From contig NZ_SIJH01000015.1 in the NCBI RefSeq assembly GCF_004762095.1, positions 1 to 64,000 of the forward strand: DNA of 64,000 nucleotides, in the 5' to 3' direction. This document shows, one piece after another, positions 20,014 through 29,105 of the stretch (the first letter of the stretch is position 1; each line of letters begins with the position of its first letter). This stretch comes from Tabrizicola caldifontis (GTDB taxonomy: Bacteria > Pseudomonadota > Alphaproteobacteria > Rhodobacterales > Rhodobacteraceae). Under the pieces are notes generated by a model that was not told the DNA's origin, ran no database searches, and was given only the letters and a program-made list of their open reading frames with translations. Both the position numbers and the translations under genes were made by a program.

Positions 20014-20619
20014 ATGAACGAAGCCCTTCAGGAACTGGCCGGGATCATCGAGCTGAAGCAGCCCGAGGCGGTGATGTCCCATACCATCGCTCATGGCGAG
20101 CTTACCGTCGTTGCGAACCTGGCCAATCTGGAATCGCTGGTGGAGTTCCTGCGCGACGATCCGGCTTGCCGGTTCTCGACGCTGGTCGACATCACTGCCG
20201 TCGATCACCCCGAACGGGTTCAGCGGTTCGATGTGGTCTATCATTTCCTGTCAATGTATCGGAACCACCGCATCCGGTTGAAGGTGGCAGTGCGCGAAGA
20301 CGGGATGGTACCTTCGATCACCGAACTGCACCCCAGCGCCAACTGGTTCGAGCGCGAGGTGTTCGACATGTTCGGCATCCTCTTCTCGGGCCACCCCGAC
20401 TTGCGCCGCATCCTGACCGACTACGGCTTCCGCGGCTATCCGCTGCGCAAGGACTTTCCGACCACGGGCTACACCGAGGTTCGCTATGACGAGGCGCTGA
20501 AACGTGTCGTCTACGAGCCCGTGAAGCTGGTTCAGGAATACCGGCAGTTCGATTTCATGTCGCCCTGGGAAGGGGCTGAATACATCCTTCCCGGCGACCA
20601 GAAGGCCGAGGCGAAATGA
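20014..20619 (+). CDS. nuoC: NuoC, complex I 30 kDa subunit
   Basis: 201 residues. The 30 kDa-subunit signature [26 protein letters not shown] occurs near residues 105-130, followed by [14 protein letters not shown]. Separate from nuoD here, unlike the NuoCD fusion of enterics. Peripheral-arm subunit without cofactors. Its TGA overlaps the ATG of a thioesterase-fold gene inserted before nuoD. Confidence 0.96.
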
Positions 20620-21050
20620 AACCGGGCCTTGCCATCGGCGACCGGGCAGAGTTCCGCCACCGGATCGGTGCCGGCCACACGGTGCCGGCCCTTTACCCGG
20701 AGTCGGCGTTTTTCCGGGCGATGCCGGGCGTCTTTGCCACGGGCTACATGGTGGGCCTGATGGAATGGGCCTGCATCGAGCAGCTTGCCCCCCATTACGA
20801 AGAGGGCGAGGGCTCGCTGGGAACGTATGTCGATGTCAGTCACGTTGCGCCCACGCCTCCTGGCCTGACGGTGAAGGTCGAGACCGAAGTGACGGCCGTC
20901 GAGGGCAGGTTCGTGTGGTTCAGGGTTCGCGCCCATGACGGGGTGGACATGATCGGCGAGGGGCGGCATCAGCGCGCTCTGGTGCGCTGGGATAAATTCG
21001 TGCCGAAGGCCATGGCGAAGGCCGGGACCGGGGCAGAGGAGACGGTTTGA
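20616..21050 (+). CDS. Hotdog-fold thioesterase, FlK-like, inside nuo operon
   Basis: 144 residues. Single hotdog domain resembling fluoroacetyl-CoA thioesterase Fl[21 protein letters not shown] places Thr42 and Glu50, and [11 protein letters not shown] places His76, matching the FlK catalytic triad positions as I recall them. Overlaps nuoC and nuoD by four and one bases, so it is translated with them. No known role in complex I. It may hydrolyse an acyl-CoA or be a binding protein; the substrate is unknown. Confidence 0.75.
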
Positions 21051-22291: not shown

Positions 22292-22449
22292 TGCCGGACG
22301 TGACGATCAATCTGTGGGCCCTGATCCTGGGCGCGGCCTCGGGCCTCGCCGGGGTGATCGGTTCACGCTACGGCCACAAGCTGGTCATGGGCGCCGTCTC
22401 GGGCGCCGTGGCCGCCGTGGTCCTGACCTTCGCCAGGGGATATTTCTGA
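22291..22449 (+). CDS. Small membrane protein (52 aa) in nuo operon
   Basis: 52 residues with two short hydrophobic segments (WALILGAASGLAGVIGS and LVMGAVSGAVAAVVLTF) linked by a basic loop RYGHK; possibly a helical hairpin in the inner membrane. ATG overlaps the nuoD stop, and it ends three bases before nuoE. I know no named family. Position suggests a complex I-associated or assembly peptide; this is inference only. Confidence 0.6.
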   Translation: MPDVTINLWALILGAASGLAGVIGSRYGHKLVMGAVSGAVAAVVLTFARGYF

Positions 22450-22452
22450 GCC

Positions 22453-23517
22453 ATGCTGCGCCGCCTTCACCATACCCAGCCCGAAAGCTTCGCCTTCACC
22501 CCGGCGAATCTGGAATGGGCAAAAGGCCAGATCACCAAATACCCCGAGGGCCGGCAGGCATCGGCGATCATTCCGCTTCTGTGGCGCGCGCAGGAGCAGG
22601 AAGGCTGGCTTTCCCGTCCTGCCATCGAATATGTCGCGGACATGCTGGGCATGCCCTACATCCGGGCGCTTGAGGTGGCGACGTTCTACTTCATGTTCCA
22701 GTTGCAGCCGGTGGGCAGCGTGGCCCACATCCAGATCTGTGGCACCACGAGCTGCATGATCTGCGGTGCCGAGGATCTGATCGCGGTCTGCAAGGAACTG
22801 ATCGCGCCGACACCCCACACGCTGAGTGCGGACGGCAAGTTCAGTTGGGAAGAGGTCGAATGCCTGGGTGCCTGTGCCAATGCACCCATGGCCCAGATCG
22901 GCAAGGATTACTACGAGGATCTCACCGCCGGGAAACTGCGCGAGCTGATCGCGCGTTTCTCGGTCGGAGAGGTTCCGGTGCCCGGTTCGCAGATCGGGCG
23001 CTATGCGGCGGAACCCGCGGCGGGGCTGACCAGCCTGACCGAGTTCGAGAGCGGCCGGACACAATACAACGCCAGTGTGCAGCTGGCGGTGGATATCGGC
23101 GACACGGTGAAGCGGATCGACGGAACGGAAGTGCCGCTTTCGATGCCGTGGCTCGGCAAGTCTGCCAAGGCGGCTAGGCCTGCTGCAAAGGCCAAGGCGC
23201 CGGCTGGTGCTGCGGCCCCGGATACCCCTGCGGCCGCAGGGGTAAAGCCTGCGACGCTTGCCGAGCCGCGCGATGGCAAGGGCGATGACCTGACAATGAT
23301 CAGCGGTGTCGGGCCGAAATTGCAGGCGCTGTGTCAGAAACTTGGCTTCTGGCATTTCGACCAGATCGCTGCCTGGACGCCGGCCGAAGTGGCCTGGGTC
23401 GATGCCAATCTGGAAGGGTTCAAGGGCCGAGTCACCCGCGATAACTGGGTGGCGCAGGCGAAGGTTCTGGCTGCGGGCGGTTCGGTCGAGGACGCCCACC
23501 GCGCAGCGAAGGTGTAA
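22453..23517 (+). CDS. nuoE: NuoE, complex I 24 kDa subunit with C-terminal HhH extension
   Basis: 354 residues, about twice the usual length. Residues 1-165 are the thioredoxin-like [2Fe-2S] domain with cluster cysteines Cys96, Cys101, Cys137 and Cys141 (CGTTSC; CLGAC). An Ala/Pro-rich linker (about 225-270) leads to a helix-hairpin-helix domain (about 277-343: [14 protein letters not shown], then [10 protein letters not shown]). NuoE binds the NuoF/FMN module. The extension resembles the domain in the next gene and, from memory, the C-terminal extension of ribosomal protein L21 in related bacteria. Confidence 0.94.
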
Positions 23518-23574
23518 GGGAAGGACGAGAAGACTGACACAGCCCGCAACGGGCACCACAGAGAGGGACGGCAG

Positions 23575-24165
23575 ATGCGCAAGGCTGAGAATTTGAATGC
23601 CCCGAATCTCGGGGGGTGGGCGATCGGAGCGGCGGCAGGCCTTGTGGCCTTTGGTGCCCTGGTTGTCGTCGGCAAGTTCGATCTGTTTCCGGCAGCCTTC
23701 CTTGGCGGTGTCCTTGCCGTTCTTGTAGGGTTGATCCTGGGCATGCCCTGGGGCGCAACCGCCCCTGCCCAGCCCGGCCCGCGCGTTCGCAAGATCGTGC
23801 CGGCCCCCGAAGCATCAGCCGCCGTCGCGTCGATGCAGCCGGTGACCGCGCCCGCAGCCCCCTTGGCTGCTGCCGCCGCGCCCGTCGGGCCGCAACGGCT
23901 GCAAGCGCCGCGCAATGGCAGGGCTGACGACCTGAAGGAGATCGAGGGAATCGGTCCCGCACTGGAAAAGCTGCTGAATTCCCTTGGTTTCTATCACTTC
24001 GACCAGATCGCAGGCTGGAGCGATGATGATATCGTTCTGGTCGATGCCGAAATGGAGAATTTCAAGGGCCGCATCGTCCGAGACCGCTGGGTGGTGCAGG
24101 CGAAGATCATCGTGAGCGAGGGGCTGGAAGCCTTTCGCGAACGCGCGAAGACCAACAATTACTAG
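23575..24165 (+). CDS. Membrane-anchored HhH-domain protein, NuoE-tail paralogue
   Basis: 196 residues. Two membrane helices (about 13-33 and 38-58), an Ala/Pro linker, then a helix-hairpin-helix domain (about 117-177) that aligns closely with the NuoE tail: DDLKEIEGIGPALEKL, LGFYHFDQIAGW, VDAEMENFKGR, VRDRWVVQAKI. It starts 57 bases after nuoE. The arrangement suggests a membrane tether or assembly factor for the NuoE/F module, which is inference; an unrelated nucleic-acid-binding role is possible because HhH domains usually bind DNA or RNA. Confidence 0.7.
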   Translation: MRKAENLNAPNLGGWAIGAAAGLVAFGALVVVGKFDLFPAAFLGGVLAVLVGLILGMPWGATAPAQPGPRVRKIVPAPEASAAVASMQPVTAPAAPLAAAAAPVGPQRLQAPRNGRADDLKEIEGIGPALEKLLNSLGFYHFDQIAGWSDDDIVLVDAEMENFKGRIVRDRWVVQAKIIVSEGLEAFRERAKTNNY

Positions 24166-24173
24166 GGCCACCA

Positions 24174-24395
24174 ATGAATCGCCCCGATCCCCAGGACCTA
24201 AAGCGGGCAGCCCAGGCGCGGCTGGTCGGCATCGTGCTGGCGGTGACGATGCTTCTGTGGATGGGGGTGCAATGGCTGGGCGGCCGCTTGGGGTGGGAGA
24301 CGCGCTACGTCTTCCTGTTCGATTTTGCCGCACTGGCCGCGTTTCTATGGGCCCTTGTGGTGACGTATCAGATCTGGCGGGGACGCCGGGGTTAG
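24174..24395 (+). CDS. DUF5337-family small membrane protein
   Basis: 73 residues with two membrane helices ([40 protein letters not shown]). The N-terminus [19 protein letters not shown] fits the DUF5337 family, which I know from nuo loci of Rhodobacteraceae. Function unknown. It lies between the HhH protein and nuoF, with gaps of eight and ten bases. Confidence 0.7.
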
Positions 24396-24405
24396 GAAGG
24401 CTGCA

Positions 24406-25701
24406 ATGCTACGCGATCAGGACCGTATCTTCACAAACCTTTACGGGATGCACGACCGCAGCCTGAAGGGCGCTATGAAGCGCGGCCATTGGGACGGCAC
24501 TGCCGAAATCATCAAGCGCGGCCGCGACACGATCATCGAGCAGGTCAAGGCATCCGGCCTGCGCGGGCGCGGGGGGGCTGGTTTCCCGACGGGATTGAAA
24601 TGGTCCTTCATGCCCAAGCAGTCGGACGGACGGCCCTCCTACCTGGTGATCAATGCCGACGAGTCGGAGCCCGGCACCTGCAAGGACCGCGAAATCATGC
24701 GGCATGACCCCCACACGCTGATCGAGGGGGCGCTGATCGCGTCCTTCGCGATGGGGGCACACACCTGCTATATCTACATCCGCGGCGAATACATCCGCGA
24801 GCGCGAGGTGCTGCAGGCCGCGATCGACGAATGCTATGACGCGGGCCTCCTGGGCAAGAACGCGGCCAAGTCGGGCTGGGATTTCGACCTTTACCTGCAC
24901 CATGGCGCCGGGGCCTACATCTGCGGCGAGGAAACGGCACTGCTCGAAAGCCTGGAAGGCAAGAAGGGCATGCCCCGGATGAAGCCGCCCTTCCCGGCCG
25001 GGTCCGGTCTTTATGGCTGCCCGACCACGGTGAACAACGTGGAAAGCATCGCAGTCGTGCCCACGATCCTGCGCCGGGGGCCGGAATGGTTTGCGGGCTT
25101 TGGGCGGCCGAACAATGCCGGCACTAAGCTGTTCGCCATCTCGGGACATGTGAACTATCCCTGCGTCGTCGAAGAGGCGATGTCGATTCCCCTGAAGCAG
25201 CTTCTGGAGGAACACTGCGGCGGCGTGCGCGGTGGGTGGAAGAACCTGAAGGCGGTCATTCCGGGCGGCTCGTCGGTTCCGCTGCTGACCCAGTCGCAAT
25301 GCGACGATGCGATCATGGATTTCGACTGGCTGCGCGAGCAGCGGTCCGGCCTCGGGACGGCGGCAGTGATCGTCATGGACCAGTCCACCGATGTCATCAA
25401 GGCGATCTGGCGCCTGTCGAAGTTCTACAAGCATGAATCCTGCGGCCAGTGCACCCCATGCCGGGAAGGCACGGGCTGGATGATGCGGGTCATGGACCGG
25501 CTGGTGCGCGGCGAGGCGGAGATCGAGGAGATCGACATGCTTCTGTCGGTGACCAAGCAGGTCGAGGGGCACACGATCTGCGCCCTTGGCGATGCGGCGG
25601 CCTGGCCGATCCAGGGCCTGATCCGCGCCTTCCGCGACGAAATCGAGGACCGCATCAAGGCCCGCAAGACCGGGCGCATCTCGGCCGTTGCGGCGGAGTG
25701 A
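24406..25701 (+). CDS. nuoF: NuoF, complex I NADH-binding subunit
   Basis: 431 residues. FMN and NADH site of complex [14 protein letters not shown] (about 53-65) and the FMN loop [16 protein letters not shown]; the [4Fe-4S] cluster N3 ligands are in [12 protein letters not shown] (about 345-356) and a distal Cys in [13 protein letters not shown]. It takes hydride from NADH and passes electrons to NuoE and NuoG. Its TGA overlaps the next ATG. Confidence 0.97.
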
Positions 25702-25955
25702 TGCGGATGGCGCTGGCCCTTTCGCTGATGATGGCTCAGGCTGCCTGCGTGGCGACGGCACCGCAGACGGTGCCGGTTGCCGCAAGCGGCCCGGTGCGCG
25801 TCACGAAGAACGGCCAGCCCTTCGCCATGTGGGAAGGGGCCGTCGCGCGGAAGTTTGCAGATGCCCAGTGCGGACCGCGGGGTGTGCGGTCCACGATCTA
25901 TGACCGCTACGATCGCGTGACGGGGGAATGGGTCTATCCGGGGGGCTTTGCATGA
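25701..25955 (+). CDS. Small predicted lipoprotein in nuo operon, 84 aa
   Basis: 84 residues. The N-terminus [16 protein letters not shown] looks like an export signal with a loose lipobox (AQAAC). The mature part contains RVTKNGQPFAMWEGAVARKFADAQC and ends GEWVYPGGFA. ATG overlaps the nuoF stop. No family recognised. Export means it would face the periplasmic side, away from the NADH arm, so a structural role in the peripheral arm is unlikely. Confidence 0.55.
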   Translation: MRMALALSLMMAQAACVATAPQTVPVAASGPVRVTKNGQPFAMWEGAVARKFADAQCGPRGVRSTIYDRYDRVTGEWVYPGGFA

Positions 25956-28700: not shown

Positions 28701-29105
28701 ATGCAGCACCCGCTGACCCTGATCGCCACCCTCGGCACCGCGACTGCGGCGCTGGGGGCTTGCGCGCCCGCGGCGGAGGTGTCAGAGGGACGCGGCCAGC
28801 CGGTCTATGAGGGGGTTCAGGCGACCCCCTTGACCGACGACCTGGTCAGTCTGACCGTCGCCATGCGTGGCCCGGCAGGCAGGGCAGAGGTCGAGGCCTA
28901 TGGCCGCTGTGCGGCGGCGCAATATGCGCTGGATCGGGGATACGGGTTCGCGCGGCAGGTGCGAACCATAGTCAGAAGGGAAGGGCGGTCATGGGTCGGG
29001 GATGCGGTCTATCTCATCTCGCCCGGGCAGCCGCAGGGCCTGCGGACCATCGACGCGGCGGTGGCGGTGGCAGAATGCGCAGAGCTTGGAATACCGACGG
29101 TTTGA
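28701..29105 (+). CDS. Predicted lipoprotein in nuo operon, 134 aa
   Basis: 134 residues. Signal with lipobox LGAC (MQHPLTLIATLGTATAALGAC, Cys at residue 21). The mature domain includes TPLTDDLVSLTVAMRGP, a two-Cys pattern (YGRCAAAQYALDRGYGF and AVAECAELGIP) and RRGRSW-like basic stretches. No family recognised. It starts three bases after nuoG and ends 15 bases before nuoH. The third exported small protein in the operon. Confidence 0.6.
   Translation: MQHPLTLIATLGTATAALGACAPAAEVSEGRGQPVYEGVQATPLTDDLVSLTVAMRGPAGRAEVEAYGRCAAAQYALDRGYGFARQVRTIVRREGRSWVGDAVYLISPGQPQGLRTIDAAVAVAECAELGIPTV

Follow-up and report, generated by a model that had tools for sequence, protein, structure and literature searches.

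A protein-O orthologue in the nuo operon and its neighbour NuoE end in copies of one NusA-AR2-like domain, with signs of exchange between the two

Why should the NuoE subunit of complex I and the product of the gene directly behind it end in the same small domain? The question is raised by the nuo operon in the window (the whole stretch of DNA that was analysed, 64,000 nucleotides from Tabrizicola caldifontis), whose host is a phototroph of the Rhodobacteraceae/Paracoccaceae group. On the + strand, NuoE is followed by 57 nt, the ORF of a protein-O orthologue, a DUF5337 ORF and an ORF that we take to be nuoF from its position and sequence. The features are as follows.

22453-23517, + strand: NuoE, 354 aa
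22453-23157, + strand: NuoE core, 2Fe-2S thioredoxin-like, residues 1-235 (PF01257, E=1.4e-51; residues 1-235 align with 8qby_E)
23158-23283, + strand: Ala/Lys/Pro-rich linker of NuoE, residues 236-277, read from the sequence (8qby_E stops upstream of it)
23284-23514, + strand: NuoE C-terminal tail, a NusA-AR2-like (HhH)2 domain plus a 10-residue end (core 23284-23481, residues 278-343)
23518-23574, + strand: spacer of 57 nt, by its sequence in frame with both genes
23575-24165, + strand: protein-O orthologue, 196 aa, with membrane hairpin, linker and HhH domain (phmmer match to 8yy9_O, E=1.2e-28; hairpin profile match; nuoE-O-nuoF position as in Dinoroseobacter shibae)
23608-23742, + strand: membrane hairpin of protein-O, with its two helices at residues about 12-31 and 37-56 (AF2 helices; Foldseek match to 8yy9_O, prob 1.00)
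23752-23925, + strand: flexible linker of protein-O, residues 60-117 (pLDDT <50 over construct residues 169-209)
23926-24162, + strand: protein-O C-terminal domain (CTD) and O-type end GLEAFRERAKTNNY (core 23926-24123, residues 118-183)
24174-24395, + strand: small membrane ORF of the DUF5337 family, between protein-O and nuoF (PF17272, E=6.7e-32)
24406-25701, + strand: nuoF, the next core operon gene, from the ORF list; its translation anchored the survey described below

No match to a sigma-70-like promoter was obtained in 22300-24600. The same interval holds four terminator-like sites (1.6 expected), one of them within the protein-O gene and one within the DUF5337 ORF. Elsewhere in the operon, a fluoroacetyl-CoA thioesterase-like ORF (20616-21050; PF22636, E=3.4e-31) is flanked by ORFs that are presumably nuoC and nuoD, a small ORF at 25928-26467 matches DUF5333 (E=3e-33), and the small ORFs at 25731-25955 and 28701-29105 gave no Pfam match.

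The likeness between the two C-termini is real. BLASTP aligns them over 70 residues with no gaps, 36 of them identical (51%) and 49 similar (88.6 bits, E = 4e-30), and a whole-genome search of the host found exactly two copies of the domain, plus one chance-level match (E = 0.285). The original prediction had called it a helix-hairpin-helix (HhH) domain, a label that stands as a fold class but is weak by sequence, Pfam HHH_5 giving the CTD 17.7 bits (E = 0.005) and the NuoE tail 13.8 bits (E = 0.08), short of the curated cut-off of 27. NuoE and protein-O share one reading frame here and in other loci, and a natural read-through therefore provided a linked chain for folding. In both AF2 models, that of the window and a replicate from Roseovarius (L055), built on alignments of 16 and 15 rows, the pLDDT of the domains is mostly about 85-96. 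The nearest fold found by Foldseek is the acidic repeat AR2 of NusA, with probabilities of 0.72 and 0.66 for the window model and 0.90 and 0.93 for the replicate, and with TM-scores of 0.65-0.72 by target length but E values of 0.7-3.2. AR2, likewise an (HhH)2 domain, is described as a binder of SuhB and of the alpha-CTD of RNA polymerase (PMC6614801), and by analogy the domain studied here may serve in protein binding. Mean net charge is -2.2 for the tails; for O domains it is -2.0 among phototrophs and -0.8 among the rest. NuoE tail and CTD are thus two copies of a single acidic tail domain, of (HhH)2 type and NusA-AR2-like fold. A further Foldseek match of the AF2 models, with probabilities of up to 0.66, is chain BS in entries for the trypanosome mitoribosome; HHH_5 matches occur elsewhere in the host genome, and one PHROG match was seen at E=0.099.

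Alphaproteobacteria place this domain at the C-terminus of several unrelated proteins. NCBIfam models for NuoE (NF009040), L21 (NF008915/NF008916), S2 (NF008966) and the phasin PhaH (NF045508) match both the NuoE tail and the CTD. At the level of the class, the domain is rare outside the family (of 143 class genomes 16 have it, and three of those 16 belong to the family), and its heads there include NuoE, L21, S2, single- and multi-helix anchors and some long ORFs with no membrane helix. In other genomes this tail recurs, core motif included, on L21 (6 rows) and S2 (2 rows); the NuoE and O copies have invariant positions, and much of the core motif is common to the other heads. The L21 of the host is judged to be tail-less, since its match to the long L21 model (216 positions) covers positions 1-145 and no more.

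The protein behind NuoE is orthologous to protein-O, which cryo-EM shows as a hairpin wedged between the reaction centre (RC) and LH1 in D. shibae, the CTD being untraced (PMC12079452). The best matches of the ORF are from Tabrizicola and Rhodobacter. Among all PDB chains, phmmer with the whole ORF returned 8yy9_O, the 'Reaction center protein O chain' (E = 1.2e-28), and 9wqv_a (E = 1.6e-23), which are the sole strong sequence matches of both the CTD and the whole ORF. The similarity to residues 159-239 of 8yy9_O reaches 98 bits over ORF residues 103-191. The gene lies between nuoE and nuoF, as reported for D. shibae, where the CTD was also said to resemble the ends of NuoE and other proteins (PMC12079452). 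A single-sequence search of the hairpin against that of D. shibae gave a weak 7.9 bits; when profiles were compared by hhalign, the Rhodobacter-type and D. shibae-type hairpins matched with a score of 57.8 (E 6e-12, 97.5%), the controls reaching at most 22.2 in 30 block-shuffled profiles and 19.3 when reversed. A second hairpin type, present in some nuoE-nuoF gaps, is matched by the Rhodobacter-type profile (39.9) but not by the D. shibae-type one (20.7). By structure, Foldseek aligned the hairpin with three RC-LH1 entries: 8yy9_O (prob 1.00, rmsd 1.0 over 42 columns), 9lts_A (0.97) and 9wqv_a (0.89). The membrane-tethered architecture foreseen in the original prediction, two membrane helices and a flexible linker ahead of the domain, was borne out by the AF2 model as a hairpin of two hydrophobic helices, a low-confidence linker and the CTD.

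The Cys10-Cys59 disulfide of protein-O has no counterpart in the window protein, which is free of Cys. When O proteins were screened loosely for two Cys near the N-terminus at a distance of 39-57, 50 of 82 had such a pair, in phototrophs and non-phototrophs alike, and we therefore treat the Cys pair as variable and not as defining. In D. shibae the pair is reported on the cytoplasmic side, and both ends of the hairpin are therefore cytoplasmic (PMC12079452). Mean pairwise identity of the hairpins is 31.5% against 30.9% after shuffling; with conservation this slight there is no visible constraint on a precise RC-LH1 interface, and hairpin constraint did not differ significantly between phototrophs and others (p=0.118). 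The CTD is far better conserved, at about 65% identity. A C-terminal tyrosine (...NNY, ...GVY and similar) is present in 13 of 16 rows of the hairpin-protein alignment A2. In one surveyed genome (G028, locus L122) the protein-O of the nuoE-nuoF gap agrees by eye with 8yy9_O over the aligned residues, and this genome is probably D. shibae. The host genome of the window contains two Photo_RC genes of the pufL/M type and gave no match to CytoC_RC (pufC).

How regularly do the two elements occur together? The domain is carried by at least one protein in 276 of the 296 family genomes. Our survey covered 149 of the 296 (the even-numbered ones and G155); 147 had NuoE, and G086 was left out with a match at a contig edge. 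The 145 fetched regions and the window made 146, and 143 loci remained after G200, G118 and G150, where nuoF was out of reach, had been dropped. Absence of O means that none lies between nuoE and nuoF within the fetched stretch; a further set of loci, called the named loci below, overlaps with the survey genomes (some contigs have equal lengths) and is not independent of them. Tail and O are found together in 72 loci, the tail only in 47, O only in 10 and neither in 14; co-occurrence is not obligate, 57 of the 143 having exactly one of the two. O is present in 44 of 60 phototrophs versus 38 of 83 non-phototrophs (p=0.001 without tree correction), leaving 16 phototrophs whose nuoE-nuoF gap lacks O, and the presence of O in the 38 means that it is not reserved for photosynthesis.

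These counts were placed on a FastTree phylogeny of NuoE and NuoF with 141 rows. O did not hold up there as a marker of phototrophy, with 5.8 of 20 independent pairs going the same way and 2.4 the opposite way (median p 0.45). Tail and O showed no association on the tree, where 3.5 of 20 independent pairs went the same way and 2.9 the opposite way, and the tail tended to be absent in phototrophs (of 14 pairs, 0.9 went the same way and 6.3 the opposite way; median p 0.11). Parsimony requires 36 changes for O and 21 for the tail over the 141 tips. A tie between O and pufC among phototrophs was also rejected (O in 20 of 27 with and 24 of 33 without pufC, p=1.0), as was a relocation of O: in the 61 O-less survey genomes searched, none of the 20 HhH places outside nuo that we read by eye, including all those listed for the 16 O-less phototrophs, was protein-O-like. 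By eye, these places comprise L21, phasin-like and other heads, three single-helix anchors and one 975-aa ORF. Survey and tree together therefore describe O as a widespread nuo-operon gene, neither a strayed photosynthesis gene nor an obligate partner of the NuoE tail.

Some further arrangements deserve mention in their own right. The single-helix anchors (L267, L268, L269) have the same tail and, by eye, similar starts, and are encoded away from nuo; the 975-aa ORF (L279, 185-3109, + strand) contains three domain copies and two hydrophobic stretches. An extra gene in the nuoE-nuoF gap of L130, L132, L135, L207, L208 and four more loci encodes a protein with no membrane helix, phasin-like by eye and with the same HhH tail. 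In L014, L015, L016, L020, L021, L023 and L094, NuoE and protein-O are joined by a second hairpin protein (...TTIG...), which makes three HhH carriers in tandem.

Tail and O domain are more alike within genomes than between them. Over the 72 loci with both, same-genome identity is 70.5% versus 65.0% for tail-O comparisons between genomes, above all 5000 permutations; the window pair, at 51%, is below this same-genome mean, and between genomes tail-tail and O-O identities are 65.8% and 65.6%. The excess persists when the nearest relative on the tree is the reference (70.3% vs 66.6%, p=0.001, 70 loci). At positions with the same amino acid, codon identity is 59.8% versus 54.2% expected from the locus's own usage (72 loci), the between-genome control being 50.6 vs 49.5%. 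This codon excess is above z=2 in 13 of the 72 loci and below -2 in none, a pattern that points to gene conversion or recent duplication in a minority of loci.

The extreme ends of the two copies also tell them apart: in the window and near relatives, the last residues are ...AKTN(D/N)Y for protein-O and of the kind ...VEEAEAAARG for NuoE. NuoE bears an O-type end in 5 of the 47 tail-only survey loci and in 0 of the 72 with tail and O (p=0.008), and among the named loci in 7 of 13 with no second HhH ORF (six of the seven with nuoF in view) versus 0 of 56 with one. Most of these NuoE proteins combine a NuoE-like linker with an O-like domain start (IEGIG), and a FastTree phylogeny rooted at its midpoint suggests that, within the clade of the window, loci with fused, separate and O-only states are intermixed. 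The simplest reading is a deletion between the two repeats that would leave NuoE with the CTD of O; exchange in the reverse direction, by duplication, is possible.

Interchangeable CTDs favour a shared partner over a lock-and-key pair, and it is the shared-ligand alternative within the original prediction that we favour: most likely, both copies bind one cytoplasmic partner. The NuoE arm of complex I is cytoplasmic, and by analogy with D. shibae the ends of protein-O would be on the same side. With about 42 residues in NuoE and 58 in O, the linkers have the length that a loose tether would need. We propose that the hairpin lies in the membrane, probably in the RC-LH1 gap as in D. shibae, which would make protein-O a component of RC-LH1 in this genus as well, and that its CTD hangs in the cytoplasm on a flexible linker just under 60 residues long. 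The O CTD and the NuoE tail might bind the same soluble partner, in which case this partner, or complex I itself, would be held near the membrane hairpin. Such a role would be separable from photosynthesis; upon loss of the hairpin, NuoE could carry an O-type CTD instead, and recombination would keep the tandem copies alike.

The exchangeable copies and the protein-binding type of fold shared with NusA AR2 count in favour of the shared partner. Against the explanation stand the weak Foldseek E values, the barely conserved hairpin, the 16 of 60 phototrophs that do without O and the 14 of 143 loci with neither element, as well as the 59 of 72 loci with no codon excess above z=2 and the match of the Rhodobacter-type profile to the second hairpin type. 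In addition, the best PDB match to NuoE, 8qby_E (239 aa), ends before the tail, which speaks against complex I needing it; we take this chain to be NuoE of P. denitrificans. The extra subunits listed for P. denitrificans complex I are NDUFS4, NDUFS6, NDUFA12 and a methyltransferase, and this list names no protein-O-like subunit (PMC11522691). Taken as a whole, with copies of one tail domain, a protein-O orthologue, a hairpin tether, a shared partner and CTD exchange, the explanation comes close to being an even call, and we hold it tentatively.

Among the alternatives, protein-O could be a dedicated RC-LH1 assembly or quinone-channel subunit whose nuo position is incidental and whose CTD does little. 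Such a role is the suggestion of its discoverers, whose cryo-EM map of the D. shibae RC-LH1 has the hairpin in place (PMC12079452); the Rhodovulum entry 9wqv and the uncorrected excess of O in phototrophs agree with it. However, O is kept in nearly half of the non-phototrophs (38 of 83), its association with phototrophy is not significant on the tree, no link to pufC was seen among phototrophs, and conservation is far higher in the CTD than in the hairpin. We regard this alternative as unlikely.

In a bolder reading, which we consider quite improbable, protein-O would be a flexible link between complex I and the photosynthetic reaction centre, used for another membrane complex in non-phototrophs. 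If this were true, the hairpin would sit beside the RC-LH1 quinone path, the CTD and the NuoE tail would share a partner or touch, and the NADH arm of complex I would be brought near a source of quinol, for example for light-driven NAD+ reduction. It also seems rather improbable that the tail is a mobile and mostly dispensable add-on, spread and lost by repeat recombination and with no fixed job. The many changes of O and tail on the tree, the variety of heads and the fusions in the window's own clade would fit this, but the domain is retained by nearly every family genome (276 of 296), with invariant positions in the NuoE and O copies and a core motif largely common to the other heads.

The original prediction also suggested that the two domains may pair with each other, perhaps as an assembly clamp for NuoEF; in this reading the NuoE tail and the O CTD would keep the NuoEF module at the membrane while complex I is being assembled. 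The sole two copies found in the host genome are indeed adjacent, both are expected on the cytoplasmic side, and tail and O are more alike within than between genomes. Yet in the linked chains both domains fold well with a pTM of 0.34 (window) and 0.36 (Roseovarius replicate), which, as pTM values taken without PAE from alignments of 16 and 15 rows, are a weak negative for a fixed tail-CTD interface. Together with the 47 tail-only and 10 O-only loci among 143 and independent tree pairs that show no tail-O association, they speak against a fixed clamp, and we find this pairing very unlikely. The original prediction had itself named a missing interface, and species that have one domain but never the other alongside normal complex I, as grounds for giving it up; apart from the condition on complex I, both were observed. 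Very doubtful, too, is an RNA or ribosome link in which the tail binds rRNA, the ribosome or nascent chains during co-translational assembly: this nucleic-acid alternative of the original prediction draws on the same tail and core motif on L21 and S2 elsewhere and in NCBIfam models, but is weakened by the acidic domains and NusA AR2 fold, by the tail-less L21 of the host and by a search that found no third copy in its genome.

The location of O in the nuoE-nuoF gap across the family, in phototrophs and non-phototrophs, makes its use in RC-LH1 look like the recruitment of a respiratory-operon protein. The description of protein-O leaves open its role, that of its CTD and whether the gene is native or acquired, and our survey bears on the last of these questions (PMC12079452). 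The shared domain hints at a link between complex I and RC-LH1, which the exchangeable CTD makes directly testable, and strains that by nature lack O or the NuoE tail, or have a fused form, provide material for this purpose. Literature searches on protein-O, RC-LH1 and protein-U found PMC12079452 alone; they returned nothing on NuoE together with helix-hairpin-helix or on a D. shibae supercomplex, and no paper for the Rhodovulum LH1-RC (9wqv). For D. shibae, both the domain common to the two proteins and the position between nuoE and nuoF were in print before (PMC12079452). New are the family-wide, phototrophy-independent spread of O, the exchange of CTDs between tail and O, and their concerted evolution.

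Among known systems, the tail-matching NCBIfam models have names that are silent on the tail; NF009040 shares the NuoE head, whereas NF008915/NF008916, NF008966 and NF045508 have other heads. NusA AR2 (1wcn, 6ib8) resembles our domain in its (HhH)2 fold, C-terminal position and acidity, but is only 22-25% identical in the Foldseek alignments and has ligands of its own, SuhB or alpha-CTD; to our knowledge, it has no link to complex I. Protein-U/Y of the Rhodobacter sphaeroides RC-LH1 is similar to protein-O in hairpin and position, while its sequence is quite distinct by that paper's description (PMC12079452). The Rhodovulum sulfidophilum LH1-RC chain 9wqv_a is alike in its hairpin by Foldseek and in its CTD (residues 164-229) by sequence, but is a 229-aa chain titled 'NADH:ubiquinone oxidoreductase 41 kd complex i subunit'. 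The closest parallel is D. shibae protein-O (8yy9_O), which has the two-helix hairpin, the flexible linker, the same NuoE-like CTD and the nuoE-nuoF position (PMC12079452); the window protein differs from it in having no Cys pair, in a host genome with no pufC match and in a membership of RC-LH1 that is predicted.
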